DNA from: an uncultured Bacteroidota bacterium
Lineage (GTDB): Bacteria; Bacteroidota; Bacteroidia; Bacteroidales; P3
Assembly: GCA_902784865.1 (NCBI GenBank)
Contig: CACZWL010000002.1
Location: forward strand, 115,515-179,514
Direction: 5' to 3'
DNA length: 64,000 nt
Under the pieces are notes generated by a model. That model did not search any database. It was not told the DNA's origin and saw only the letters and a program-made list of their open reading frames with translations. A program made the translations under genes and the position numbers. Numbering within the stretch: position 1 is the first letter of the stretch; each line of letters starts with the position of its first letter. Of this stretch, positions 31,401 through 45,250 are shown in pieces.

Positions 31401-31440
31401 CTCACCCCTCCGAGGCCACCGGCCTTGCGCCAGCACAGTC

Positions 31441-31472
31441 AAGACAGGCGACCTGACAGGGTCGCCTGTCTT
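31441..31472 (+). terminator. Hairpin after purL
   Basis: AAGACAGGCGACC (31441-31453) pairs perfectly with GGTCGCCTGTCTT (31460-31472). The T tract is weak, so termination efficiency is uncertain. Confidence 0.6.
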
Positions 31473-31570
31473 CCGTCAGCATATACCACCATAGATATAC
31501 ATATAGAAAAACCGCCATGGATTTTCAGCATCTCGCACAAATTATGATTCCCGCCCGTGCGAAACATTAA

Positions 31571-31602
31571 TTTTGCCATATCAGAAATTATACGTATTTT
31601 TG
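31571..31602 (+). promoter_or_regulatory. Promoter at left edge of AT-rich island
   Basis: TTTTG (31571-31575), 19 bp, then TATTTTTG (31595-31602), a canonical Bacteroidota promoter in front of the remnant genes. Confidence 0.75.
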
Positions 31603-31626
31603 CACTTTAAAAATAAAGAATAAAAA

Positions 31627-31695
31627 ATGGCAAACTACAGCCTTTCTGGTCACGAAGCATTTGCTTGCAAGTCGTCGTGGCGCAAGAAAAGGTAA
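31627..31695 (+). pseudogene. Truncated start of a DUF4007-like gene
   Basis: The 22-codon frame encodes MANYSLSGHEAFACKSSW before a quick stop. The SGHExF...W pattern resembles the beginning of DUF4007 proteins, found in phosphorothioation-related and other defence islands. It has a canonical promoter 24 bp upstream, which suggests that it once headed the operon. The rest of the gene is gone. The resemblance rests on a short stretch and is tentative. Confidence 0.4.
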
Positions 31696-31719
31696 TACAT
31701 TAAAAAGAGCAACTAAGCA

Positions 31720-32690
31720 ATGGGCAAAGATCTGACAACAAGAAAAGGTCGCGCATCCAAACATGAGGAGGCGTTCTTCCCCGTACCTCCCGCTGAGAAC
31801 AATCTGCCAGAATGGTATGCAGAGACCCTCTCCACGCTGAAGGAACTCATTGCCAACAGCCGGAGGCAGATCATGTGGACTGCCAACGTGCAGATGACCA
31901 TGATGTATTACCAGATTGGCAAACATATCCTCCAGCGACAGAAAGCAGATGGATGGGGTGCCCGTATTGTTGACAGGCTCTCTGCTGATTTGAAAACGGC
32001 ATTTCCCGACCAAAACGGATTCTCGCCGAGAAACCTGAAATACATGCGCCGCTTCGCCGAGATTTGGCCCGACGAAGCAATTGTGCAACGCAGCGTTGCA
32101 CAATTGCCCTGGCGTCACAACATCTGCCTGATGGAAAAGGTCAAAGAGCCCAATCGCAGATTGGCTTATGCGATGGCGGCAATAAAAAATGGATGGAGCA
32201 AAAACATCCTCGAACTACAATTGGACAACTACACCTTGGAACGTGAAGGCAAACTGCCGAGCAACTTCGACGGGACACTTCCCGCTGTGCAGTCCGATAT
32301 GGTGCAACAGATGTTCAAAGACCCCTACCTTTTGGATTTCACCGGTGCCGATGCCAATTTTTCTATCACCTGCGACTGCGTTGCTATGTGGTGATAGAAC
32401 TGAAAGCCGTGCCCTTCAATCCCGACATGATGGGACAGCTGTCCTTCTATCAAACCGTGGTGGACGAAACCATGAGGCATGAAACCGACGGCAAGACCAT
32501 TGGCCTTCTTTTGGTGAAAAACAAGAACGAAACGGTGGTGCGCTATTCGCTTGCCGGAATGAGCAAGCCCCTAGGAGTGGCATCGTGGGAGACAGAAGTC
32601 AGCCGAGAGGTCGCCGACAAATGGGTATCGAACTTGCCCACGATAGCGGAACTTGAAAAAGAACTTGAAAAGGAGGAGTCCCCCAAATGA
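31720..32690 (+). pseudogene. Broken DUF1016/YhcG-type PD-(D/E)XK nuclease gene
   Basis: The N-terminal DUF1016 region is intact (31720 to about 32350: WYAETLSTLKELI, QIGKHILQRQ, FSPRNLKYMRRFAEIWP, LPWRHNICLMEKV). The nuclease C-terminus continues in another frame (FYHLRLRCYVVIELKA, then FNPDMMGQLSFYQTVVD, IGLLLVKNKN, KPLGVASWE) to 32690. At about 32355 DFTGADAN is joined directly to FYHLRL, so a stretch that in family members includes the catalytic Asp before LLFYH is deleted and the frame is shifted. The gene is therefore inactive. It was probably part of the defence cluster. Confidence 0.85.
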
Positions 32691-32839
32691 CTAGATGGCA
32701 CATATTAGGCATATCTGGAGGCAAAGATAGCGCAGCGCTATTTATCGGCGATACATCGGTGTCCTTTCGGCGATACGTCGGTGGTTTTATTTCTTCGTCC
32801 CTTCTTCGTGGGATCTTTGTGTCTACTTTGCTGCTATGA
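32687..32839 (+). pseudogene. N-terminal remnant of a PP-loop PAPS-reductase-like (DndC/CysH-type) gene
   Basis: The ATG overlaps the stop of the nuclease remnant (ATGA). The frame reads HILGISGGKDSAAL, the ATP-binding PP-loop motif (SGGKDS) of PAPS reductase/DndC-like proteins, then runs into GGCGATACATCGGTG-type repeat sequence and a stop at 32839. No further family sequence follows. DndC-type enzymes act in DNA phosphorothioation; related PAPS reductase-like proteins occur in BREX-like islands. Confidence 0.55.
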
Positions 32840-32990
32840 TGAACCACTTAAAAGCCAGCACTTTGTATAAGCGACCCATAACAAAAGTAACCTATTGATT
32901 TTCAACTAATAGTTCAATTACCCTTGTTGGACGAGCCGACGGCACACCACGGCGATCCTTCGGCGGTCTCTCGGCGACCATATTATTTCA
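32725..32990. repeat. Short direct repeats of GGCGAT...TCGGTG type
   Basis: TATCGGCGATACATCGGTGTCCTTTCGGCGATACGTCGGTGG is followed, near 32940-32985, by related ACGGCGATCCTTCGGCGGTCTCTCGGCGACC. Both blocks lie where the PP-loop gene is interrupted. Otherwise 32840-33025 holds no gene. Confidence 0.5.
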
Positions 32991-33025
32991 GTATTACATT
33001 TTTAACAGCCGTTGAAAAATACTTT

Positions 33026-33057
33026 TTGTCAATTCAAAAAGATTGTGTATCTTTGCA
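33026..33057 (+). promoter_or_regulatory. Promoter of the NurA-HerA-GHKL-rSAM operon
   Basis: TTTTTG ends at 33030. After 19 bp comes TATCTTTG (33050-33057), and the start codon follows 35 bp later. It is the only convincing promoter before the six-gene operon. Confidence 0.8.
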
Positions 33058-33092
33058 GTTTGAATCATAACGGTAATAGGACAAAGAATGTA

Positions 33093-34268
33093 ATGAAAAT
33101 ACTAGACTTCATAGAAAAGGACGGTGAAGGGAAGTATGCTTGTTATAAAACAAAAAAACTTATCCTCGACCAAAACGACCAAGATACACTTGATTACGAC
33201 GACAAAGCCCCCGCCGCAACCAATAGTGCCAGTATCGCAGAAACTGACCTCACGAGAAACGAAACTGTTACTATCAGCCAACAAATGATGAAACTGGCCA
33301 GTACCCCTCTTTTCTCTTATTTCCTTGATGGTTCTCGACATGTTTACAAAGTAGATGATATTGCAATAGGGAACCGAATCTTCCCATTCCTAGCAGGTCA
33401 AATTGTGGTAGGGTGTTGTGTGAGAAAAGACAGAGATATTTTCAAACGTCATTCTGTTACACGAAGGGTTTTACTATCGTTACCTCGTAACTTTAACTAT
33501 GACGACGACAAAGAGGCAAACTTTTGTCGTATGTACTGCGAGAAAATAAACGAGGAGTTGGCAAAAAATCCCTTTGTGCAGGAACATGGCATCAAGATAG
33601 ATAAGATTTTGCTTTATCCCACAGACGGGTCAAAGGAAATTACCGCAGATAAGAATGGCTATAAAAACAGCGGTACTGCAAAGATTCAGAACGAGATGAC
33701 AGACGAGGAGCAGTTGATGGTTGCTGAACTTTGCAAAAACAACCTGCTTGACAACGACCACTTCCTAATAAAAGATGGCTCAATAGAATACAATCCCAGC
33801 TATTCTAATCTTTCAATCACAGAATGGAACCAACTCCGCTCCAATTATAAACACGTGGTGGGAGTATCAAAGATGTTTAACCCAGACTTATTGCGTGACT
33901 TCAAGGGTCATCGACTTTCAAAAACCATCGCCAATTTAAAGCCTTTTGAACGGACAAAAGTTTATAGATACCCGGCTTCTGGCAATCAATCGGAGTTTGC
34001 CATGTGGTATCTTAGATTACGAAAAAAAGACTTCCGAGAAACTCACTTTTCCGATGTTATCAAATGCGAAATGGTTTTGGAAGAAAAGGGTGGTCTGTTG
34101 GACACCCAGCTTGTTGACCTCATTAGTGCCAACCTTATCCGCGAAGCTTATCCCACTTGTTATGGCAAAGACAGTCGCTGGGCGAACCACCTCTATCCAG
34201 TTTTCCTTACAGAGAGTTTCTGTAAATCAAACTATATTAATCAGAATATAATCCTAAATCTCTTTTGA
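33093..34268 (+). CDS. NurA-like nuclease
   Basis: This is a 391-residue protein. Residues 76-82 (FLDGSRH) match the NurA signature in which an aspartate followed by Gly-Ser binds the catalytic metal (Asp79 here), and the gene is directly followed by a HerA-type ATPase, the standard partner of NurA in DNA end resection and in several phage-defence systems. The rest (RVLLSLPRNFNYDDD, KTIANLKPFERTKVYRYP, MWYLRLRKKD, LISANLIREAYP) is compatible with a divergent NurA fold. Start 33093 follows the promoter; the 27 preceding codons in frame span it. AT-rich compared with core genes. It is separated from the next gene by 1 bp. Confidence 0.65.
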   Translation: MKILDFIEKDGEGKYACYKTKKLILDQNDQDTLDYDDKAPAATNSASIAETDLTRNETVTISQQMMKLASTPLFSYFLDGSRHVYKVDDIAIGNRIFPFLAGQIVVGCCVRKDRDIFKRHSVTRRVLLSLPRNFNYDDDKEANFCRMYCEKINEELAKNPFVQEHGIKIDKILLYPTDGSKEITADKNGYKNSGTAKIQNEMTDEEQLMVAELCKNNLLDNDHFLIKDGSIEYNPSYSNLSITEWNQLRSNYKHVVGVSKMFNPDLLRDFKGHRLSKTIANLKPFERTKVYRYPASGNQSEFAMWYLRLRKKDFRETHFSDVIKCEMVLEEKGGLLDTQLVDLISANLIREAYPTCYGKDSRWANHLYPVFLTESFCKSNYINQNIILNLF

Positions 34269-34269
34269 T

Positions 34270-35937
34270 ATGACCAAAATTATCGGCAAAGTATCCGCAA
34301 CGGAAAAGGACCCTTCAACTATTGATGAGTTTTATTTTTGGACTGACAAACGCCAAATATTGAGCCCCTTTGACATTGTAAAAGTAGAGCACGAGTGCAA
34401 CTCAACAACCTATGGTGTTATAGAAGAGATTAATCATGTGACAGATTCCCCCAGTCATTTTACAAGTTACATTTCCAGCGACTTTGGAGATATCGACGAT
34501 AATATTGGGAATATGAATCGACTGGGCATGAATTATGTGAAAGTGCGTGTTTCGTGCAACACACAGAACATATACACTCCAGTTTTGAACGACCGTCGTG
34601 TCTCTCTATGTGACGAAAACGATATTAAAGTTGCTCTGGGTCTGAGCGAGAAGGATGTACAAAACCCATTGGTGTGTGGATACCTGCAAATGTACCAAGG
34701 CGATGCTGCCATTAAAGTCCCTGTAGTTCTCAACTCGCACTTCCTTCTTGGTCCTGATGGCGCACATATCAACGTCTCCGGTATTTCCGGTTTGGCAGCC
34801 AAAACGTCATTCTCCATGTTCCTATTGAAAGCCATACAGGAGAAATTCCGTACTGAAAATGGAGAAACTGTTGCCTTTGTGTTTTTCAATGTCAAAGGAC
34901 GTGACCTTATGGCCATTGATGAACCAAACTCCGAACTGTCGGGCAAAGACCAAAAGATTTACCATGATCTTGGATTATCGGCACAACCATTTGATAACGT
35001 CAGCTATTATTATCCATACAGCAAGGATAAAGCAACCGCCAACGTTCAAAGCTATGCACAGCCAGAAGATGTAAACAAACAAATAAAACAAGGTAAAGCG
35101 AAGAAGTATAAATTCATCTATGAGAATTGTATTGATAAAATAGACCTTCTATTGGCAAATGAAGATGATTCTACCGGAACGCTCGAAAGTTGTGTGAACT
35201 ACATAATAAATCGGCAAGAACCATTTAATGCTGTTGATAGTTGGACAACTCTTCGCGACAAGATCGACGAGTGTACCAAAACGGAAGCGAATGGCGGAAA
35301 GAAGAATGAAATCCAAGTCACAAGCTGGCGTAAGTTCAAAAGATGCGTGAATAAAGCCATTCAAAACCCACTTTTCGCCAGCAATTTAAACGATGCTACA
35401 GGTGAAGTTGATTTGACAGAAGAAATTTCCAATGGACTTACCGCAGGACAGGTAATGGTGATAGATATCGCACGACTTGATGATAACGCCCAAAGTTTTG
35501 TCTTTGGAAGCGTTGCTCGAGCCATCTATGATATGAAACTCGGAGCTGAACGAGACAATATACCGGAAAAGGTGATTATGTTTGTAGATGAGTTAAACAA
35601 ATATGCCTCCAATGATGTTCCCAAAAGTTCACCCATTCTTCAACAGCTGCTTGACATTGCCGAACGAGGACGCTCTCTAGGTATTATTCTTTTCTCCGTT
35701 GAGCAGTTCCGAAGTGCTATTCACGACCGCGTAAAAGGCAACTGCGCCACTCAGGCCTATGGGCGAACAAATGCAATTGAGGTGTCAAAATCTGATTATA
35801 GATACATTCCTAAAGTGTATCAAAATATGATGACACGACTATCGCCAGGAGAGTATATTATATCCAACCCCGCGTTGCGCTCACTTGTTAACATAAGATT
35901 TCCACGTCCCGCATATAAACAATATCCAAATGGTTAA
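34270..35937 (+). CDS. HerA-like DNA translocase ATPase
   Basis: The 555-residue ATPase of the HerA/FtsK clade has an N-terminal beta-barrel-like region (IGKVSATEKDPSTIDEFYFW), a modified Walker A GISGLAAKTS (171-180, Lys178-Thr179; the Gly before the Lys is replaced) and Walker B VIMFVDELNKYA (Asp440-Glu441). The arginine-finger/sensor stretch LLDIAERGRSLGIILFSVEQFRSAI follows, and the C-terminus has a NIRFPRPAYKQ pattern. HerA forms hexamers that feed DNA to NurA. A middle insertion (about 215-390) is longer than in archaeal HerA. It overlaps the next gene by 8 bp. Confidence 0.85.
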   Translation: MTKIIGKVSATEKDPSTIDEFYFWTDKRQILSPFDIVKVEHECNSTTYGVIEEINHVTDSPSHFTSYISSDFGDIDDNIGNMNRLGMNYVKVRVSCNTQNIYTPVLNDRRVSLCDENDIKVALGLSEKDVQNPLVCGYLQMYQGDAAIKVPVVLNSHFLLGPDGAHINVSGISGLAAKTSFSMFLLKAIQEKFRTENGETVAFVFFNVKGRDLMAIDEPNSELSGKDQKIYHDLGLSAQPFDNVSYYYPYSKDKATANVQSYAQPEDVNKQIKQGKAKKYKFIYENCIDKIDLLLANEDDSTGTLESCVNYIINRQEPFNAVDSWTTLRDKIDECTKTEANGGKKNEIQVTSWRKFKRCVNKAIQNPLFASNLNDATGEVDLTEEISNGLTAGQVMVIDIARLDDNAQSFVFGSVARAIYDMKLGAERDNIPEKVIMFVDELNKYASNDVPKSSPILQQLLDIAERGRSLGIILFSVEQFRSAIHDRVKGNCATQAYGRTNAIEVSKSDYRYIPKVYQNMMTRLSPGEYIISNPALRSLVNIRFPRPAYKQYPNG

Positions 35938-37678
35938 TAATATGCAAAACATAAACAATCCAGTTATTGGCATTGATCTTCTGAAAATGCTGATGTTGCA
36001 GCTTTACAGTAATCCCCGCTGCATCTACCGAGAGTATATACAGAATGCATTGGATTCAATTAACGAGGCGGTAAAGACCGGTATACTTGCCCAAGAGAAA
36101 GATGGTCGGGTGTCAATTAGTATCACAAAAAGCGACATTTGCATCGAGGACAATGGAACAGGTATCCGAAGTGGTATGGCGGTCAAAGTTCTCACCGATA
36201 TCGCAAATAGTGTAAAGAATGGCGTTGATACTGCTGGACAGTTCGGTGTTGGCCGCCTCTCTGGGGGTGGGTATTGTGAGGTTCTTGAATTTGAAACAAC
36301 CTACAAAGGTGAAGATGTATCAACAATCGTTTCATTCGATACAATGGCATTGAAAGATTTGGTTGAAAAAAAACAAATTGATATTTCTGCCGAAGATGCC
36401 ATGAAGATAATATGCACCACGAGTACTAAGCCCGCCGAACCAAATGAACACAGGTTCATTGTTCGTCTGAAAAATGTTATCAATTCAAGAGAGATTCTGC
36501 TAGATATTGAAGAAATACGGAACTATATCATCGAATATGCTCCAATTGACTATTCCGTACTATTTAATTCCTTGATAAATAATTGTCCTCAGACAGAATT
36601 TGTGAAGAGACACAAAAAAATAGACAAAATAAGAGTGTCTCTTAATGACTACTCCGATATCGAAAAGGGATATGGGGTTAAAGTTTTAGGCATGGGTGAC
36701 CCAATCGAGAAAATTCGTTATTTTGAATTCCCAAAACATCCCAAATACGGTTCTCTTGGGTGGGGGTGGTATGCTGTTACAGAATTTTCTGTGCAAATTC
36801 CGGAAGAAAAAGATTGCTTGTCTGGAATTAGGCTGCGCAAACATAATATTTCATTAGATAAAGATTTGTTGAACACGGCATTCAAACAGAATCGAGGTAA
36901 TCGTTATTTCTATGGGGAAATTTTTATAGACAATGACAATATTGTTCCAGATAGCGGAAGACAAGGTCTGGCTGCAGGAGAAGCGGCTGATGCTCTAATG
37001 TTAGAAATCAAGAGATACTTTTCTGACACATTAGGTGCTGTATATTATCGTGCAAACAAATTAAAAACAGCGCTTAGCAAAGCATCTGAAATGGTGGGAA
37101 AAATCAGTAATCCCAGTTTTTCCAATGCAGTAGAACCTTTAACAAAGAGACTACAGGACTACATTAATGAATTTAACAAGGCCGCCACACCTGATGCAAA
37201 AGAAGAAATAAATGATGTTATTGCAATCTATAAAAACAAGTATAATACCGAATTAAAATCAGAAGTAGAGAAATATCTCGCACCTAAACAAGAGCCAAAG
37301 GCGGATAAACAAGATATTCTCGATATGATAGCAGCACCAGTAGTGTGCGAGCCCGTCACGCCCACACCTCCTGTCAAAACTCATAGTTCGAATATTCCAG
37401 AGACATCTCCAGAAATAAGCCCCATTATATCACTATCTCCACAACAACCTTCAATTCTTCCAAGCACACCGCTGGTCAATACACCCAAACAGAAAAAAAC
37501 AGTTCAATCCAAATCAAAAGTAGACGAGATATTGTCTTCGCTTGAAGGAGGGCACTATACTCTCGAACAGATTGATTTGCTGAAGAAGGTTTTTAGTACA
37601 ATGCTTATTGTTTGTTCTTCTTCTCAGAAAAAGAGTGTTATTCAATTAATGGAGATTGCAGTGAATAGCCTCAAATAA
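35930..37678 (+). CDS. HSP90-like (GHKL) ATPase protein
   Basis: The 582-residue product carries a Bergerat-fold ATPase domain: YREYIQNALDSI with Glu35 and Asn39, EDNGTGI with Asp74, and glycine-rich lid GQFGVGRLSGGG (103-114). A middle region (about 230-370) and a helical segment follow, then a Pro/Ser-rich linker (about 455-525) and a short helical C-terminus. Such standalone HSP90-like proteins occur in anti-phage and DNA-processing systems. The start at 35930 overlaps herA; the internal ATG at 35942 is equally possible. The lid and catalytic residues appear intact, so ATP hydrolysis is likely. Confidence 0.85.
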   Translation: MVNNMQNINNPVIGIDLLKMLMLQLYSNPRCIYREYIQNALDSINEAVKTGILAQEKDGRVSISITKSDICIEDNGTGIRSGMAVKVLTDIANSVKNGVDTAGQFGVGRLSGGGYCEVLEFETTYKGEDVSTIVSFDTMALKDLVEKKQIDISAEDAMKIICTTSTKPAEPNEHRFIVRLKNVINSREILLDIEEIRNYIIEYAPIDYSVLFNSLINNCPQTEFVKRHKKIDKIRVSLNDYSDIEKGYGVKVLGMGDPIEKIRYFEFPKHPKYGSLGWGWYAVTEFSVQIPEEKDCLSGIRLRKHNISLDKDLLNTAFKQNRGNRYFYGEIFIDNDNIVPDSGRQGLAAGEAADALMLEIKRYFSDTLGAVYYRANKLKTALSKASEMVGKISNPSFSNAVEPLTKRLQDYINEFNKAATPDAKEEINDVIAIYKNKYNTELKSEVEKYLAPKQEPKADKQDILDMIAAPVVCEPVTPTPPVKTHSSNIPETSPEISPIISLSPQQPSILPSTPLVNTPKQKKTVQSKSKVDEILSSLEGGHYTLEQIDLLKKVFSTMLIVCSSSQKKSVIQLMEIAVNSLK

Positions 37679-37682
37679 CATT

Positions 37683-39659
37683 ATGAGACCGAAAAAAAGA
37701 AGAAAAGTACTGCTTATTGAGCCTAATTATGCTAATAAGTTTCCGCCAATAGGATTGATGAAAATATCAACCTATTATAGGAATCGTGGCAATTGGGATG
37801 TGGTGTTTTATAAGGGTGATTTGACGACCTTTGTAATTGAACGTATTGCGGACAAATGTATTGCCGAACTTGATTTGATTGACAACTCCATTGATTGGGC
37901 CATCCGAAAAGACAGAATATTTGACTATATCAAGACTCGTAAACGGGAGGCGCTGGAAAGTATTGGCGTGGATGATTCCGATTTTGGATTATTGTTGCGA
38001 GGAAAACTGGATGACTACAAGAACTACTATTGGAAGGGCATATGGAAGCAGGAACCCGAATGGGATCGCGTGTGTGTAACCACGTTATTCACCTTTTACT
38101 GGGATATTACGGTGGACACGATTAACTTTGCGAAACAACTTGTAAAGAAGCCCAAAGACTTGAATGTAGGAGGTGTGTTGGCATCCATCCAGCCCGATCA
38201 ATTGTATGAAGCTACTGGAGTAAAACCTTCTGTTGGTGTTCTCAACAAGCCAGGTGTATTCGATAAGGGAGATACTCAAATCATCGACGAGTTGCCTCTC
38301 GATTACTCCATCCTTGATGAAATTGACTATAAATATCCGATGTCAAATGCTTTCTATGGCTATATGTCGCGCGGATGCATACGGCATTGTGCTTTCTGTG
38401 CTGTTCCTACGCTCGAACCTGTCTATACTCCGTATATCTCGCTTACCGACCGCATCAATGGCATCCGTGAACGATATGGCGACCAGAAAGACCTTTTGTT
38501 GATGGACAACAATGTCCTTGCTTCCGAAAGGTTCGAGGATATAATCAACGAAATCAAAGCCTGTGGATTTGAACGAGGTGCAAAATTCTCACAACCCAAT
38601 TTGCTTGAGATATCTGTAAGGAATCTGCGTGATGGTTGGAATGACCGTGCGTATATTCGCAAAACGCAGTCGTTGATAAGTGAGTTCTACGAAACGCTAA
38701 CAAATAAAGAAGAGTCGTATGAGGTTTATAAGATACTAGAAAGATATCATATCAAGAAGTTGATTACCTCAAAGAAAGAGAATCTTCTTGCTGCTTATGA
38801 GGAAATTAAACCGTATTACGATAAACATTTCCACGCTGGATTGAAACAGAGGTATGTCGACTTTAATCAAGGAGTAGACGCTCGTCTGTTTACGGAAGAG
38901 AAAGCTCGTATGTTGGCTTCAATCGCCATTCGGCCATTGCGCATCGCTTTTGATGATATTAAGACTCGTCCCGCTTACGAAAAAGCAGTCAGATGGAGTG
39001 TGTCGGCGGGTATCAAAGACTTTTCGAACTATCTGCTTTACAATTTCAAGGATGAACCTATTGATCTCTACCGAAGACTTAAGATTAACGTCGACCTATG
39101 CGAAGAATTAGGCGTTAGCATTTACTCTTTCCCGATGAAATACCATCCCTTGTATGGAGATAATAGCCACGATAGAGATTACATTGGAGAACATTGGAAT
39201 CGTAAGTATATCCGTGCAATTCAAGCCATTCTTAATAGCACAAAGGGGAAGGTGGGTAAAGGTGTTGAGTTCTTTGGAGAAGCTTTTGGGCACACGGAAG
39301 ATGAGTATTTTGAACTGCTCGAAATGCCCGAAACCTTTATCTTGTACCGATTCTTCTTTAAGTGGTTGGATGAGAAGACTGGACGAGGTACAGAGCATTG
39401 GAAAGGACTTTGGTATCATTGTAAAGAGAAGGTATCCGAATTGGAATGGAACAAAATTGAGGATGTTATTCATACCAATGTGTTTAATGACGATACAATC
39501 CTTGACTTTGCCGACGATGAAGTGAGAGAGTTGTTGCGCTGTTATATGGATTATCGCAAGGACATCATTACGCCAGGCACCGAGCTCTACGATTTGAAGA
39601 AGGAATACGACCAGCACCCAACAAGAAAGTTGCGGAGAAAGGAGCAGCATGAGGCCTAG
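37683..39659 (+). CDS. Radical SAM enzyme with cobalamin-binding-like N-terminus
   Basis: The 658-residue protein begins VLLIEPNYANKFPPIGLMKISTYYRNRG, typical of B12-binding radical SAM enzymes. The cluster motif C232-IRH-C236-AF-C239 binds the 4Fe-4S cluster that cleaves SAM. Further downstream it has LLLMDNNVL, VDFNQGVDARL and IRPLRIAFDD, which fit radical SAM core strands. The long C-terminal region (about 440-658) is unassigned. The substrate is unknown; inside this operon it may modify nucleic acid or a partner protein. It overlaps the next gene by 11 bp, so expression is probably coupled. Confidence 0.85.
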   Translation: MRPKKRRKVLLIEPNYANKFPPIGLMKISTYYRNRGNWDVVFYKGDLTTFVIERIADKCIAELDLIDNSIDWAIRKDRIFDYIKTRKREALESIGVDDSDFGLLLRGKLDDYKNYYWKGIWKQEPEWDRVCVTTLFTFYWDITVDTINFAKQLVKKPKDLNVGGVLASIQPDQLYEATGVKPSVGVLNKPGVFDKGDTQIIDELPLDYSILDEIDYKYPMSNAFYGYMSRGCIRHCAFCAVPTLEPVYTPYISLTDRINGIRERYGDQKDLLLMDNNVLASERFEDIINEIKACGFERGAKFSQPNLLEISVRNLRDGWNDRAYIRKTQSLISEFYETLTNKEESYEVYKILERYHIKKLITSKKENLLAAYEEIKPYYDKHFHAGLKQRYVDFNQGVDARLFTEEKARMLASIAIRPLRIAFDDIKTRPAYEKAVRWSVSAGIKDFSNYLLYNFKDEPIDLYRRLKINVDLCEELGVSIYSFPMKYHPLYGDNSHDRDYIGEHWNRKYIRAIQAILNSTKGKVGKGVEFFGEAFGHTEDEYFELLEMPETFILYRFFFKWLDEKTGRGTEHWKGLWYHCKEKVSELEWNKIEDVIHTNVFNDDTILDFADDEVRELLRCYMDYRKDIITPGTELYDLKKEYDQHPTRKLRRKEQHEA

Positions 39660-42552
39660 CATGCAGAAATATTATGAAGGTCTGGTGTCTAAACAACCTG
39701 AATCCGTTAAACGATTTCTTTTGAAGAATCGATTAATGAGGTATGAAAAAGCTTTTATATGGCTGGACAAGTCCGATAAGATATTTATCACAAACGGTTT
39801 TAAAAAAGGTATTGAATTACGAGCGGATTACGTGTTCAATAAACTTTGCAAAAAATATAGAGCACAACAGCATCAAGAAATTTCAGAAGATCCAGTCAAC
39901 CAACGAAAAAATTATTTCATTGAGTTCAAACCCTTGGCTGTTGAGCTTCAACATTCTGAACTATTATTGTTGCAGGAGTACTGCATAGCATCGATACGTA
40001 GTTTATCCAGATTATCTCAAAATATTTTGTTGGCAAATGGATTATATGGTATAGAACAACTGTTTCCATATATTAAAGGCGAAAAAAGAATCGCAGAGCT
40101 TTTAAAGAGTTCACCCAGAAGAAAGACAAAGGATGAATTATATGGATTGCTTAAAGGTATTCGGCGTAAGGTGGAAGAAAAGTCTAAAATAGCACAACTA
40201 GAAACAACCGATTTCCCTAAAAAGGACAAAACACAAAATGTCAGTATAGAAGAGATAGACGATTTCAAATTAGAGCCCATAGGAGAATCCCCGTCTTTGA
40301 GAAATGACACTGAAGATAAAATGGAGTTATCGTTTGCAGAATGGCAAAATAAATTATCTGTAAGATCGAGAAATATTTTGGAAACAAATGGTGTCACATG
40401 CCATAAAGATTTAAAGGCTTTATTTGATAAAAAATTCTTTTCTTTTAAAGATTTAAAAGGCTGTGGCGCAAAGAGCGCAAAAGAATTAATGGAAATGGCT
40501 AATGCTCTTATAGAGCTGGAGCCACAAACAACAGATAATGTTGACAAAGAAAAAATAAATAATCTTGAAAGAAAAATAAATAGTTGCCATTTGACAACAA
40601 GAGCCAAGAATTTTCTAAAAGAAGCAAATATTGAGACCATAGGAGATCTTGTATCTCTCAATAGAGATGATGTACTAAGATTTAAACATATTGGTCGAAA
40701 AACAATATTTGAATTGGATGTTTTTTTGGAGGGTTTGGGGCTTTCCTTTGGAATGAATCTGACAGGTTGTTCCCGTGAAAATAAAGCAAATGATGTAATT
40801 GATCCAATTCTCGCTTTATTTTCAAACGAAGCAAGATCATTTGCAACATTTTTTAAGGAAAAGCAGGGCCATCTCCCAATGATATTTTTACTATACGAAA
40901 GATTAAACTCTCTTGCAGAATATGAAGAGATGATATTCAAATTATATTATGGAATAGCTGATGCCTCTTCTTTTTCATACGACAAAACTAACTCAGATAA
41001 GAATGATTACTCAATAGAAGGTCGATCCCCGTTGTCAATTGAGGAGATTGCAGAAAAATATTGCCTAACACATGAACGTGTTAGACAAATTCTTGTAAAA
41101 GCGCAGAATAGATTTGTGAATGCGGCAAAACTATTACGTAATCACAGAGACTGGTGTTATTATGGGTTGGATAAAAATCCTCTCTTCGTTTGGAATGTGG
41201 ATGATAACTTACGCAACCTGTTGTCTTTGGAAGATTCAGAATTAAAGATTTACGTGCGCGAAAACTCTCATACAGAACCAGATGTTTCCTTTCTAAATAA
41301 AAAAACCATAATTGACGAATACCTTTTAAAAATATTGCTTATTGGCTGTGACATGAGCCTGTATTGGATTGATTCAGAAAGAGTCGAAATACGTACTGGT
41401 TTATCAAATAAAAAAATAAAGCCAAACGAACCAAAAGCCACTAATATTCTCATGATAACTGGCAGACTTGACTCTTTCAAGTTTAACAAGGCTATCAAAG
41501 AGGTTTTCCGGTTGTATAAGGTCAAGACGGAAGATGATATACTTGTTCCAATAAAAAGCTGTTTTGTCGACAATTCTGACTATTGGTCCTCAGAAAGAAA
41601 GCTGGCAGATAATGAAAAAAATAGTTTAGAATGTTTATTGACAAATCTTTTTAAAGAGATATGTGATGCCTTTGTTGATAATGGGAATCTTTTTGTGAAG
41701 GCAAATAAGATTGATTATGGAACGTTTGCATATGAAATACTCAAAATTGCTGGTACACGGTTACATCGAGATGTTTTATTTACTAGATTAAATAAAGTTT
41801 GTGAAGAAAAAGGGTTATCGGTTCTTGTTGATCCATTACGGTTCTCGTTATTATTGTCTAAGGATTCTCGAATTGTAACATATGGTAAATCTGGTTTTTG
41901 GGGATTGAAAGAATGGGGGGAGGTAACTGGTAGCATCCGAGACATAGCAGTTAAGATGGTTCGGAAATCAAAAGAGCCGATTCAAATAGAAGACCTTGCA
42001 AATAGGATTCTCTTGCATCGACCTGATTCTGCCTTTGATAATGTGACAACAATTATTCGTCAATCTGTATACATGGGGGAATTTGTGCTCTTCTTTGATG
42101 ACTATATCGGCCTTAAGGGTAAAAAATACGATGACAAATATGTCATATATCCAACCTCATTTGACGAGTGGGTTGATACGTATAGGAATTATGTGCAAAA
42201 CAACAGACACCATCCTTATTGTGGCCAAAATGGATATGAGGGATACTTATATCGATGGCATTATAAAGCAAGCCAATTGACGGACTTGTCGCCAGATGAG
42301 ATTGTAAAAATAGATATTCTCGACAAAGAGCTCTCACACTATCCCCATAATGCAACCGAAAACAAATTCCTTCATAATTGCAATCTTTATAAAAGGTTTG
42401 TCGAAGGAAACAATCGCATGTTAAAAGAATCTGACGACAAAGATCTTTTCAAGTGGTTTTACTCTGCCAGTCGCGATTACAGTTCGTATAACGATAATCG
42501 CACTAAATACTTCAGCCAACTACTTCAGTATTTATCCAATAAACTATATTAG
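39649..42552 (+). CDS. Large protein combining RNAP alpha-CTD-like, sigma region-4-like and HARE-HTH-like domains
   Basis: This 967-residue protein is assembled from parts of the transcription machinery. Three helix-hairpin-helix units resemble the RNA polymerase alpha C-terminal domain (about 118-170, 234-285 and 311-370, e.g. LTTRAKNFLKEANIETIGDLV, FKHIGRKTIFEL). A sigma-70 region-4-like HTH lies at about 460-490 (LSIEEIAEKYCLTHERVRQILVKAQNRF core). Residues about 762-825 (SIRDIAVKMVRKSKEPIQIEDLA) resemble the HARE-HTH domain. The C-terminal 140 residues are unassigned. It overlaps the radical SAM gene. A DNA-binding or transcription-linked sensor for the operon is the likely role. Confidence 0.75.
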   Translation: MRPSMQKYYEGLVSKQPESVKRFLLKNRLMRYEKAFIWLDKSDKIFITNGFKKGIELRADYVFNKLCKKYRAQQHQEISEDPVNQRKNYFIEFKPLAVELQHSELLLLQEYCIASIRSLSRLSQNILLANGLYGIEQLFPYIKGEKRIAELLKSSPRRKTKDELYGLLKGIRRKVEEKSKIAQLETTDFPKKDKTQNVSIEEIDDFKLEPIGESPSLRNDTEDKMELSFAEWQNKLSVRSRNILETNGVTCHKDLKALFDKKFFSFKDLKGCGAKSAKELMEMANALIELEPQTTDNVDKEKINNLERKINSCHLTTRAKNFLKEANIETIGDLVSLNRDDVLRFKHIGRKTIFELDVFLEGLGLSFGMNLTGCSRENKANDVIDPILALFSNEARSFATFFKEKQGHLPMIFLLYERLNSLAEYEEMIFKLYYGIADASSFSYDKTNSDKNDYSIEGRSPLSIEEIAEKYCLTHERVRQILVKAQNRFVNAAKLLRNHRDWCYYGLDKNPLFVWNVDDNLRNLLSLEDSELKIYVRENSHTEPDVSFLNKKTIIDEYLLKILLIGCDMSLYWIDSERVEIRTGLSNKKIKPNEPKATNILMITGRLDSFKFNKAIKEVFRLYKVKTEDDILVPIKSCFVDNSDYWSSERKLADNEKNSLECLLTNLFKEICDAFVDNGNLFVKANKIDYGTFAYEILKIAGTRLHRDVLFTRLNKVCEEKGLSVLVDPLRFSLLLSKDSRIVTYGKSGFWGLKEWGEVTGSIRDIAVKMVRKSKEPIQIEDLANRILLHRPDSAFDNVTTIIRQSVYMGEFVLFFDDYIGLKGKKYDDKYVIYPTSFDEWVDTYRNYVQNNRHHPYCGQNGYEGYLYRWHYKASQLTDLSPDEIVKIDILDKELSHYPHNATENKFLHNCNLYKRFVEGNNRMLKESDDKDLFKWFYSASRDYSSYNDNRTKYFSQLLQYLSNKLY

Positions 42553-42554
42553 GA

Positions 42555-43400
42555 ATGATTGTTTCGACATATCCCGGAAAACCGCTTGCAGGAATGGAAA
42601 AGTATAAAAAGCTCTACCATTTTACTTCATTTGACACTTTTGTTAGGATATGGTTGTCAAAGAAATTGAAATTCGGAAGCATGCTTGAGGTAAACGATAT
42701 ACAGGAATCCATGAAAGGCATCTCTGTTTCCCATCCCCATCGCTTACCAATAATGTTTGCATTTCAAGATATCGTTACACACTACAGGCAGATTAGCTTT
42801 ACAATGGATCAGGATACTTTCATTAAAGGATACATGAATACCATGATGTGGGGATACTATGCGGATAAGTCTCATGGAGTGTGTATTGAGTTTGACTATG
42901 ATAAACTAGTAATTCCATGTGATGTTCTAAAAGGGGTTGTGGAATACCAGGACATCGTACCTCAAAGAGTTGATTTGCCAGATTCGGTGAATACAATTGC
43001 AGATGTGAAAGAGTTCGTTTTGTCGGAACAAAAAAAATTATTCTTTGTGAAGCAAAAAGGATGGATAGGGGAAAACGAGTATAGGCTTGTAAGTGACAAT
43101 CATAATTATCTTGACATTGATGGAGCAGTAAGCCGTATTTACCTGACATCCTATGAAAGTGATGAATGTAAGTGGGTGGAGCAACTAGTAGATGGCACGG
43201 TATCCGTCATGTGTTTACATTATTTGAACAATCTTCCTATTGCATCTGACACTAAAAAGTTAAGAGAACAAATTGAAAAAGCAAGAAACAAAACAGGAGT
43301 TTTGAATCAGATATCCGAGCAAGCGAAGTTATTTTATAAAAAACACAAAAATGACGAAAACGAGCCTTTGATATTGAATGAATATATTATTAAAACATAA
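42555..43400 (+). CDS. DUF2971-family protein
   Basis: The 281-residue protein starts 2 bp after the previous stop. It carries the DUF2971 hallmarks: YKKLYHFTSFDTFVRIWLSKKLKFGS near the start, MMWGYYADKSHGVCIEFDYD in the middle and KGWIGENEYRLV later. Family members of unknown function occur often in defence islands; structural arguments have linked them to ADP-ribosyltransferase-like or other effector folds, but this is not certain. It is the last gene of the six-gene operon. Confidence 0.8.
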   Translation: MIVSTYPGKPLAGMEKYKKLYHFTSFDTFVRIWLSKKLKFGSMLEVNDIQESMKGISVSHPHRLPIMFAFQDIVTHYRQISFTMDQDTFIKGYMNTMMWGYYADKSHGVCIEFDYDKLVIPCDVLKGVVEYQDIVPQRVDLPDSVNTIADVKEFVLSEQKKLFFVKQKGWIGENEYRLVSDNHNYLDIDGAVSRIYLTSYESDECKWVEQLVDGTVSVMCLHYLNNLPIASDTKKLREQIEKARNKTGVLNQISEQAKLFYKKHKNDENEPLILNEYIIKT

Positions 43401-43523
43401 TCACAAGGGATGCCACATGCTCCTCTACAATAATAAGGTAAAACAGAATGAACCATTTCCCACTTTTTCAAACCTCAATTAAATGCGAATTGGAAATTTC
43501 ACTATAAATGCGTTAGTCTGTAT

Positions 43524-43554
43524 TTTGACATTTGAAATAAAACCCATATCTTTG
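43524..43554 (+). promoter_or_regulatory. Promoter for DUF4143 ATPase
   Basis: TTTG (43524-43527), 19 bp, then TATCTTTG (43547-43554), separating this gene from the operon upstream. Confidence 0.8.
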
Positions 43555-43621
43555 TACCCGGAAAAAAACAAGAGATAGCATTAAGAATAAACACGACGAA
43601 ATCCATACAATAAGTAAAAAA

Positions 43622-44848
43622 ATGCAAAAACAGGATTTGATATATCGCAAGCAATATATGCAGCAACTGCATAGCCTAAAAGACCAGAATATCATAAAGG
43701 TAATTTCTGGAGTGCGTCGTTGTGGGAAATCGACATTGCTGATGATGTTCGCCGATGAACTGATAAATAATGGAGTACAAAAAGAGCAAATTCAATTCTA
43801 TAATTTCGAAGATCTTGACACGTTGGCCATTGGCGACATCTACCAAATCCATACACACATCAAGAATCTGCTGGTCGAAAACACACCAAACTATATCTTT
43901 CTGGATGAGGTTCAAAATATCAAGGAGTTTCAACGATTAGTCGACAGCCTCTATATCAAGTCCAATGTGGATGTCTACATCACAGGTTCTAACGCCTATA
44001 TGCTCTCTGGCGAGTTGGCCACTTTGCTGACTGGACGTTATGTGGAAATCAACCTTCTTCCACTACAGTTTTCTGAATACTACAATTTTACAGTATCAAA
44101 ATCGCCAAACTTATCAAAATTGGAAATTTTGGCGAATTTTATACATTACGGTGGTATTCCTGAGTATGTTAAACAACTCATTGCAGGAGAAAAACAGGCT
44201 GACCTATTTGCTGATAGTATATTGAAGACAATTGTAGAAAAGGATATCTTCAAACGTCTCAACATTACCAACAAGCACGATTTCAACAAGATCCTTGATT
44301 TTATTTTCGACTCAGTGGGATCGTATGTATCTCCTCGTTCTATATCCGACACGCTCCGTTCGCAAGGTACGGTGGTTGACAAAGAAACAGTGGCCAAATA
44401 CCTCGATGCAATGTGCGAGGCTTATCTAATCTACAAGGTTCCTCGATTTGAAATAAAAGGCAAAGGTTTATTGCAAACCCTAAACAAATACTATGTTGTA
44501 GACCCCTGTTTCGCCAAAGTACGCTTAAAGAAAGGAATTCTAAAAGACCGTTCTCATTGGCTTGAGAATATGGTATACCTTGAACTTGTCCGACGCAACA
44601 GAGATGTATTCATCGGCAAGCGCAACAATCTGGAAGTTGATTTTGTTGTCACGGACTACGACGGCTATACATCCTATTATCAAGTGGCTTGGACAACTGA
44701 AAATCCAGAGACATTGGAACGTGAATTGGCATCGCTCCGAGCAATCAAAGATTCCAACCCGAAGTATTTGCTGACGACGGACAACGACTTTAACCCTGTG
44801 TACGACGGCATTCGAAAGTTAAATGTAATTGACTGGTTTCTACAATAA
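43622..44848 (+). CDS. AAA+ ATPase with DUF4143 domain
   Basis: The 408-residue protein has Walker A SGVRRCGKSTLL (about 29-40), Walker B YIFLDEVQNI, the sensor-1-like YITGSNAYML and a C-terminal DUF4143 region including an endonuclease-like VDFVVTDYDGYTSYYQVAW. Such ATPases are common in Bacteroidota and archaeal genomes, often as single genes; they have been discussed as toxin-antitoxin-like or mobile-element genes without a settled function. It has its own promoter. Confidence 0.88.
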   Translation: MQKQDLIYRKQYMQQLHSLKDQNIIKVISGVRRCGKSTLLMMFADELINNGVQKEQIQFYNFEDLDTLAIGDIYQIHTHIKNLLVENTPNYIFLDEVQNIKEFQRLVDSLYIKSNVDVYITGSNAYMLSGELATLLTGRYVEINLLPLQFSEYYNFTVSKSPNLSKLEILANFIHYGGIPEYVKQLIAGEKQADLFADSILKTIVEKDIFKRLNITNKHDFNKILDFIFDSVGSYVSPRSISDTLRSQGTVVDKETVAKYLDAMCEAYLIYKVPRFEIKGKGLLQTLNKYYVVDPCFAKVRLKKGILKDRSHWLENMVYLELVRRNRDVFIGKRNNLEVDFVVTDYDGYTSYYQVAWTTENPETLERELASLRAIKDSNPKYLLTTDNDFNPVYDGIRKLNVIDWFLQ

Positions 44849-44882
44849 AAATGCGTAAAAGTGCGAAAGTTAAAATGAGTAT

Positions 44883-44951
44883 ATGGATAAGTTTCAGGAA
44901 GCAATGTGCGCTTTTGCCAATGATATGCCAGGCTCCCGAGAGAAAGGATAG
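44883..44951 (+). pseudogene. Short gene fragment
   Basis: A 22-codon frame (MDKFQEAMCAFANDMPGSREKG) reads like a piece of a protein and runs to a stop. Nothing upstream continues it. It is probably debris at the right edge of the acquired region. Confidence 0.3.
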
Positions 44952-44956
44952 TGTGA

Positions 44957-45250
44957 GACGGTGTTGATGGCACCCAAGATGATACCCAAGGTGGCACCCA
45001 AGGTGGCACTCAAGGTGTTACTCAAGATGTTACTCAAGGTGTTACTCAAGATGATAATCTTGATGCGTGGATAGAAGAAAATATACGTCAAAATCCAAAG
45101 ATAACAACAGATGAATTAGCTAAGTTGAGTAATAAGGGAATTGCTACAATCAAACGCCACATTGCCAAACTGCCACACATCAGATATGTAGGTAGCGGCT
45201 ATAGCGGTCATTGGGAAGTACTAACGGAAACAAAAAAAAACAGGAACACG
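44957..45250 (+). pseudogene. C-terminal winged-helix remnant of an ATP-binding/Fic-type regulator
   Basis: There is no start codon. The frame opens after a stop at 44954, encodes a TQG/TQD-rich 12-bp tandem repeat (44966-45058), then a winged-helix segment (PKITTDELAKLSNKGIATIKRHIAKL, GSGYSGHWEVL) typical of the C-terminal tails of Bacteroidota AlbA-type or Fic-type regulators. The frame continues without a stop into the GH97 start codon. The catalytic or ATP-binding front half is absent. Confidence 0.65.
44966..45058 (+). repeat. 12-bp tandem repeat (ACNCAAGRTGNN)
   Basis: About seven units encode Thr-Gln-Gly/Asp-x. Repeats of this kind form the flexible linker in the parent regulator family. 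Confidence 0.85.

Follow-up and report, generated by a model that had tools for sequence, protein, structure and literature searches.

A mobile gene cluster joining NurA-like and HerA-like proteins to an HSP90-type ATPase and a radical SAM enzyme: a candidate anti-invader system

In a stretch of 64,000 nucleotides of Bacteroidales DNA (the window), we analysed an operon whose first four genes, A to D, encode a NurA-like nuclease, a HerA-like ATPase, an HSP90-type ATPase and a radical SAM enzyme. These four genes recur in the same order in several phyla. In the window they lie on a mobile island and are followed by a hypervariable protein, E, which changes together with one patch of the HSP90-type protein. 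On balance, the cluster is probably a mobile anti-invader system in which E would recognise, C would switch, NurA-HerA would degrade and D would mark self. It would thereby add a HerA-nuclease defence in which an HSP90-type switch and a radical SAM enzyme are central; to our knowledge, neither an HSP90-type nor a radical SAM protein forms the core of any named anti-phage system.

Locus layout and genomic island

The operon comprises six co-oriented ORFs, labelled A to F. Their positions, and those of the promoter-like site and the surrounding island, are:

33093..34268, + strand: gene A, NurA-like nuclease, 391 aa
34270..35937, + strand: gene B, HerA-like translocase ATPase, 555 aa
35930..37678, + strand: gene C, HSP90-type GHKL ATPase, 582 aa; the variable patch is residues 251-480
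37683..39659, + strand: gene D, radical SAM enzyme, 658 aa; B12-fold-like N-terminus; CxxxCxxC at 232/236/239
39649..42552, + strand: gene E, hypervariable modular protein, 967 aa
42555..43400, + strand: gene F, DUF2971 protein, 281 aa; optional
33025..33055, + strand: promoter-like site of the operon, TTTG-N19-TATCTTTG, by motif match
31401..45235, no strand: island lying between purL and a GH97 gene, about 13.8 kb, by comparison with the genome G316

The tight spacing of six co-oriented genes described in the original prediction is real: B and C overlap by 8 bp and D and E by 11 bp, and the remaining junctions are gaps of 1 bp (A/B), 4 bp (C/D) and 2 bp (E/F), with the start of A placed at 33093 by aligning relatives. 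The shared promoter proposed for the operon is borne out in its promoter-like form. Its site is one of 10 matches in the window to TTTG-N19..21-TAnnTTTG, which we take to be the Bacteroidota promoter consensus, against 0.37 expected. A second promoter-like match, at 43524-43554, precedes the next gene, and the operon therefore probably ends near 43400. The operon is also AT-rich between GC-richer flanks, as had been noted. Its G+C content is 33-43% in 1-kb blocks from 33 to 44 kb of the window, and that of the three 1-kb blocks upstream is 65, 53 and 49%; downstream, G+C is still low up to 45 kb (41%) before climbing to 55%.

Other genes and remnants share the island. A YhcG/DUF1016 nuclease gene at 31720-32690 is in two overlapping pieces, and the first part of the profile of its C-terminal domain is unmatched. 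Just upstream of the operon, at 32689-32760, lies the 5' fragment of a truncated PP-loop gene with the motif SGGKDSAA (PAPS reductase/DndC-like by eye). The gene at 43622-44848, which has the promoter-like site at 43524-43554 as its own, encodes an AAA_14-DUF4143 ATPase (PADLOC candidate PDC-S01). A remnant with an HTH-like tail at 44880-45235 runs in frame into the GH97 gene and resembles, by eye, the end of an AlbA_2-type gene.

Mobility of the island

The genome that contains the window (2.40 Mb in 43 contigs) belongs to the Bacteroidales, going by named relatives. The distance from purL to the GH97 gene is about 13.8 kb in the window and 79 bp in the same-genus genome G316; it is about 120 bp in G296 and about 1 kb in G302. 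The purL-GH97 neighbourhood is itself variable, since only 8 of the 15 genus genomes searched have a GH97 match of any kind. Full-length D occurs in 2 of 37 genus genomes, and in the second of these, G298, it lies on a contig apart from purL. At the level of the order, a D match of any kind was found in 18 of 295 genomes, and one of at least 500 residues in 10. NurA is present in 11 of these 295 genomes and near full length in eight, of which six have it on the same contig as D; in the other two it is close to a contig end, in one case beside HerA. The island is thus mobile, being patchy in occurrence and missing from an empty site in a same-genus genome. Around the A-B-C-D loci that were clustered (a set without L135 and the four from viral or phage records), no non-core family appeared in more than three.

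A conserved four-gene unit

Of 131 loci with D, most of them located via searches with D, 35 have A, B, C and D together and in this order (L062 and L135 are one locus). D is at least 500 aa long in 33 of the 35 and shorter in two. The hosts are Bacteroidota, Lentisphaerota, Kiritimatiellota and Bacillota, along with phage or viral contigs; the D search gave 27 named loci. The conserved neighbourhood that the original prediction called for is therefore present for A-B-C-D. It does not extend to six genes as one system, and a six-gene unit was rejected because E (12 of 49 loci) and F (2 of 49) are optional.

Individual loci depart from the intact unit. HerA is broken in L029, HSP90 in L031 and the radical SAM gene in L033, and NurA is cut by the contig end in L063. 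Genes are interposed among A to D in L035 (a second HSP90 gene and a member of family x7), in L033 (families x23 and x7) and in L067 (a 220-aa protein and a DndB-like protein). Distances for A to D across loci give Pearson correlations of 0.64-0.97. By rank, the Spearman coefficients are 0.27 for C against D and 0.50 for A or B against D, and because these are low we do not claim strict co-inheritance.

The pair of HSP90 and radical SAM genes is a wider core than the four-gene unit. Among the 43 full-length D genes with flanks available, 40 have C within 2.5 kb (the exceptions are L068, L160 and L194) and 29 have A or B within 8 kb. The shorter forms of D, many of them phage-borne, lack C in 41 of 43 cases with flanks.

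A NurA-like nuclease and a HerA-like motor

The NurA and HerA identities had been proposed from sequence alone and are supported, for A by a structural model and for B by profile comparison. Searches of A against Pfam and PADLOC profiles gave no family match above chance level, and the E-value against NurA by profile alone was 0.48. The AlphaFold model of A (pLDDT 82) has as its best Foldseek match the Deinococcus radiodurans NurA (7f6d_G, E 1.7e-11, TM 0.52/0.59), followed by the Thermotoga nuclease TM1739 and then by chain 8wfd_G of TdpAB (E 5e-6). Invariant in 22 sequences are DGS79-81, E206 and KDGS227-230; D79, E206 and D228 among them may be the counterparts of the catalytic residues of NurA. 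The model thus supports A as a NurA-fold protein with predicted nuclease activity. The profile of B matches D. radiodurans HerA (7f6d_B) with an E-value of 8.6e-49, and K178-T179 and D440-E441 are invariant in 23 sequences. The usual glycine ahead of the Walker A lysine is replaced, and the PADLOC matches are weak and to HerA/mad8 only (best 3.4e-6, to mad8). These data support B as a HerA-like motor with Walker A and B motifs.

In D. radiodurans and archaea, NurA and HerA are adjacent genes as well, with the same predicted fold as A and sequence similarity to B. There they are repair genes, whereas here they form one mobile operon with HSP90 and radical SAM genes. One study reports that the NurA-HerA of D. 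radiodurans degrades DNA and that HerA-NurA performs end resection (PMC9960219). This link to DNA repair counts against a defence function. The cluster could accordingly be read as a repair or recombination module that travels on mobile elements without serving defence, and distant HerA relatives followed by SbcD- and SbcC-type genes, as on all four of the plasmids L025, L026, L027 and L028, would fit such a role. Patchy occurrence, the cassette-like variability of E and the lack of any non-core family in more than three of the clustered A-B-C-D loci make it highly improbable in our view. On some of the four plasmids, sigma-factor or ImmA/IrrE genes lie nearby.

The HSP90-type ATPase and the radical SAM enzyme

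For C, the HSP90-like GHKL ATPase that had been predicted is upheld by a match to HATPase_c_3 (Pfam E 2e-8) and by an ATP site that is invariant in 21 sequences (E35, N39, D74, G78, G103, G106 and G108). The similarity to HtpG (E 4.7e-11) covers profile positions 10-132 only. C thus carries a GHKL ATP site with an Hsp90-type glutamate.

The radical SAM assignment of D likewise stands, with a CxxxCxxC motif that is invariant in 23 of 23 sequences; the Pfam radical SAM match itself (E 0.013) is under the curated cut-off. The nearest Foldseek neighbours of its model (pLDDT 85) are TsrM, MgmA, AprD4 and TokK, with TM-scores of 0.32-0.37. The N-terminus may have a B12-binding fold, the matches to TsrM, MgmA and TokK having E-values of 5e-7 to 6e-4 and low TM-scores of 0.33-0.36. 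Within the D family, Pfam detected the B12-binding domain in one relative only (L045), under the cut-off of that Pfam family. The model suggests a B12-fold radical SAM enzyme; with TM-scores this low, any chemistry proposed for D is tentative.

The optional proteins E and F

The original prediction described E as a protein built of alpha-CTD (aCTD), sigma-4 and HARE-HTH-like modules. The first two are well founded (aCTD Pfam E 9e-16, sigma region 4 Pfam E 3e-4). The HARE-HTH module is weak, its sole basis in the window being an RNAP delta match with an E-value of 0.06. The E of the window has one clear and one degenerate aCTD-like copy, and its last ~125 aa are more conserved. Among the 12 members of the family, aCTD was detected in nine, sigma-4 in seven, and HARE-HTH reached at best an E-value of 0.0084, in one member. 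All 12 loci with full-size E fall within one branch of the D tree; L036 and L056 gave partial, weak matches. The better aCTD copies retain the LSVRA-NCL and GKKS motifs, which are presumably the DNA contacts of this domain. These modules would suit DNA binding, and may also fit a polymerase decoy; the sensing of polymerase state suggested earlier is at most a candidate role.

The aCTD and sigma 4 are both phage targets, and in plants HSP90 serves immune receptors. E might thus be a mosaic of phage-attacked RNAP parts that a phage protein frees from HSP90, turning NurA-HerA on. Such a guard could explain why one fast-changing protein gathers aCTD and sigma region 4 modules and, weakly, delta-like ones, why the middle region of the HSP90-type protein changes along with it, and why identity between its aCTD copies and the RpoA encoded in the window's genome reaches 60%. 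Their identity to RpoA nevertheless spreads from ~28 to 60%, a decoy need not retain DNA-contact residues, and full-size E is confined to 12 of 49 loci, so we think a decoy unlikely.

F was found in the window and in L046. It was correctly named a DUF2971 protein (Pfam E 4e-8) and matches the PADLOC model PDC-S31. An aCTD-like domain also ends a 540-residue, ATPase-like ORF elsewhere in the window's genome (L246, near 36215 on contig C16).

Linked variability of E and the HSP90 patch

The DNA of the window and that of L046 are 92-100% identical over A, B and the start of C. Identity falls to 64-76% in mid-C and to ~50% over most of E, where the sequences are in effect unalignable; over the end of E and all of F it is back at 97-99%. 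D is 71-98% identical by block. The proteins behave in the same manner: A, B and C1-250 are each 99% identical, C251-480 is 73% and the variable part of E 30% identical, and D ranges from 87 to 96% by segment.

A trio of loci (L047, L048 and L052) has A at 97-99%, B at 99-100% and C1-250 at 98-99% identity. Between L047 and L048, similarity is kept in both the C patch (92%) and the variable part of E (76%); in the pairs L047-L052 and L048-L052 it is lost in both, at 79-80% and 34-35%, respectively. Towards its end, D groups differently, L047-L052 being 99% identical and the other pairs 84%, and so does C481-582, with 92% for L048-L052 and 81-85% for the other pairs (L047-L052 81%). The joint change of E and the C patch is based on this one pair and one trio. 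We read it as the exchange of recognition cassettes whose products may bind each other. As E and C251-480 change together among copies with 99% identity in both NurA and HerA, it suggests that E is a variable recognition subunit to which an HSP90 switch is coupled.

Proposed mechanism

Three features lead us to infer a role in defence: the cluster is mobile, one of its subunits changes rapidly, and its neighbours include AbiL/Ari-type and PDC candidate genes. The earlier suggestion of such a role is thus plausible. In the mechanism we favour, E (in other lineages replaced by other genes or absent) would recognise a trigger or a DNA target. C would be the ATPase switch, coupled to E via the variable patch 251-480; in other families, GHKL ATPases act as dimer switches driven by ATP. 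The HerA ring would then thread DNA into NurA, leading to its degradation, in line with the DNA degradation reported for the D. radiodurans pair. D would modify a macromolecule; the role we favour for it, which is the least certain step, would be to mark host DNA as self so that NurA-HerA spares it. Natural copies with 99% identity in NurA and HerA and very different E proteins make recognition directly testable with nearly the same effector, and D offers a possible lead to a new DNA modification.

Comparison with known systems

The combination had been called unnamed, and we found nothing to the contrary: none of the PADLOC 2.0 models matches A or D, and the best match of C has an E-value of 0.0065. 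A literature search (without preprints and most subscription journals) found no system joining NurA, HerA, HSP90 and radical SAM proteins. The defence systems Sir2-HerA and HerA-DUF4297 likewise combine HerA with an enzymatic partner; here the partner is NurA, and further proteins are added. We file the cluster among the HerA-nuclease anti-invader systems, with a real chance that it is a new class.

Tdp, a phosphorothioate-based system, consists of TdpAB, which degrades DNA in defence, with TdpC, a PP-loop sulfur-transfer protein. A resembles TdpAB in structure, but the present cluster has HSP90 and radical SAM proteins instead. When L029-L038, L046-L072, L135, L136 and the window were scanned for the PP-loop motif, which would not detect a divergent gene, the 5' fragment in the window was the sole match; membership of Tdp was rejected, as the PP-loop gene is missing from the loci scanned. 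Dnd and Ssp systems share a DndB-like (DGQHR) gene with L067 and with plasmid relatives, but differ in the DndC-type PP-loop motif, which is absent from the loci scanned here.

Residues 296-494 of E match the aCTD region of PglW from type 2 BREX (E 3.6e-6), over ~200 residues only. In PglW, wHTH modules come after a similar aCTD, in a half described as sensory (PMC12839542). None of the nine proteins scanned matched the PADLOC models for PglZ or PglX, so the cluster is not type 2 BREX. E also weakly resembles the sigma region of MzaA from MZA (E 0.04). Among the matches listed, none links A to D to BREX or MZA. HsdS, the hypervariable subunit of type I restriction systems, is similarly placed amid conserved partners; family and profile searches gave no match between it and E.

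Relatives on plasmids and phages

Three alphaproteobacterial plasmids that were read carry the D-HSP90 pair with a DndB-like DGQHR protein, a PIN-like protein and a second HSP90; two of them are conjugative by PLSDB typing, and the Pfam PIN_8 and DndB assignments were checked on one of the three. In L067 the NurA-HerA and DndB-like sets are found together; the DndB-like match there (E 5e-82) comes from an iterated profile that includes L067 itself. DndB-like genes occur in 5 of 10 loci of a related D-C clade. In the D tree (65 rows), the five DndB-linked loci form one clade (99/94) and L067 lies elsewhere; the NurA-HerA label requires 8 changes, compared with 21.8 after shuffling, with long branches that make the deep joins unsafe.

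Phages have related genes as well. In Marinitoga camini virus 1, a D-like gene adjoins HerA and NurA, and A-B-C-D is found in three IMG/VR loci and one phage record. The cluster might accordingly help a mobile element or phage, by self-protection or by excluding rivals, and the conjugative plasmids with D-HSP90 pairs would agree with this. We consider it distinctly unlikely, as 31 of the 35 A-B-C-D rows are genome records and no non-core family recurs in more than three of the clustered loci, a set from which the viral and phage loci and L135 were excluded.

Near shorter viral relatives of D (109 of the 213 listed proteins were scanned), the leading neighbour families are DNA methyltransferase (9), terminase (8) and ParB-like (6), as raw counts without a control; a PAPS reductase also adjoins phage kin of D. 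The DndB-like genes and the phage kin of D among methyltransferase and ParB-like genes point to DNA as the likely target. This would also be expected of restriction-modification proper, with D marking DNA at sites chosen by E in the manner of HsdS and NurA-HerA destroying unmarked DNA as in Tdp. E does vary like a specificity subunit and its better aCTD modules keep their motifs, relatives have DndB-like partners, phage kin of D adjoin methyltransferases and the PAPS reductase, and TdpAB is the third structural match of A. Methyltransferases, however, are common in phages, and D is also found where E is absent. In addition, we know of no DNA-modifying radical SAM enzyme of D's class. We therefore hold this possible but doubtful. 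A broader and more tentative view, which we find rather doubtful, is that the HSP90-radical SAM core defines a mobile immunity class in which D would place a DNA mark of new chemistry. Its interchangeable modules would be NurA-HerA and the DndB-like and PIN proteins, with a hypervariable RNAP-part recognition protein in one branch.

With regard to the anti-invader system that we favour, PADLOC-type neighbours seem commoner than in a control: 219 PADLOC models were matched among 95 neighbours, compared with 84 among 95 control proteins. The models overlap and do not count distinct members, so this excess is tentative. The control came from six same-order genomes, mostly not those of the test loci, and omits the 5 of 100 control proteins from L151; the control stretches themselves have GajA and restriction-type matches.

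Two further families accompany the core. Members of x7 (319-333 aa; no clear Pfam match in the two tested) lie beside an HSP90 gene and near D in all four loci in which the family was found (L033, L035, L045 and L057). Family x9, for which a Pfam search gave no clear match, directly follows D in L058, L059 and L071, all of which are without E, and may be a counterpart of E.
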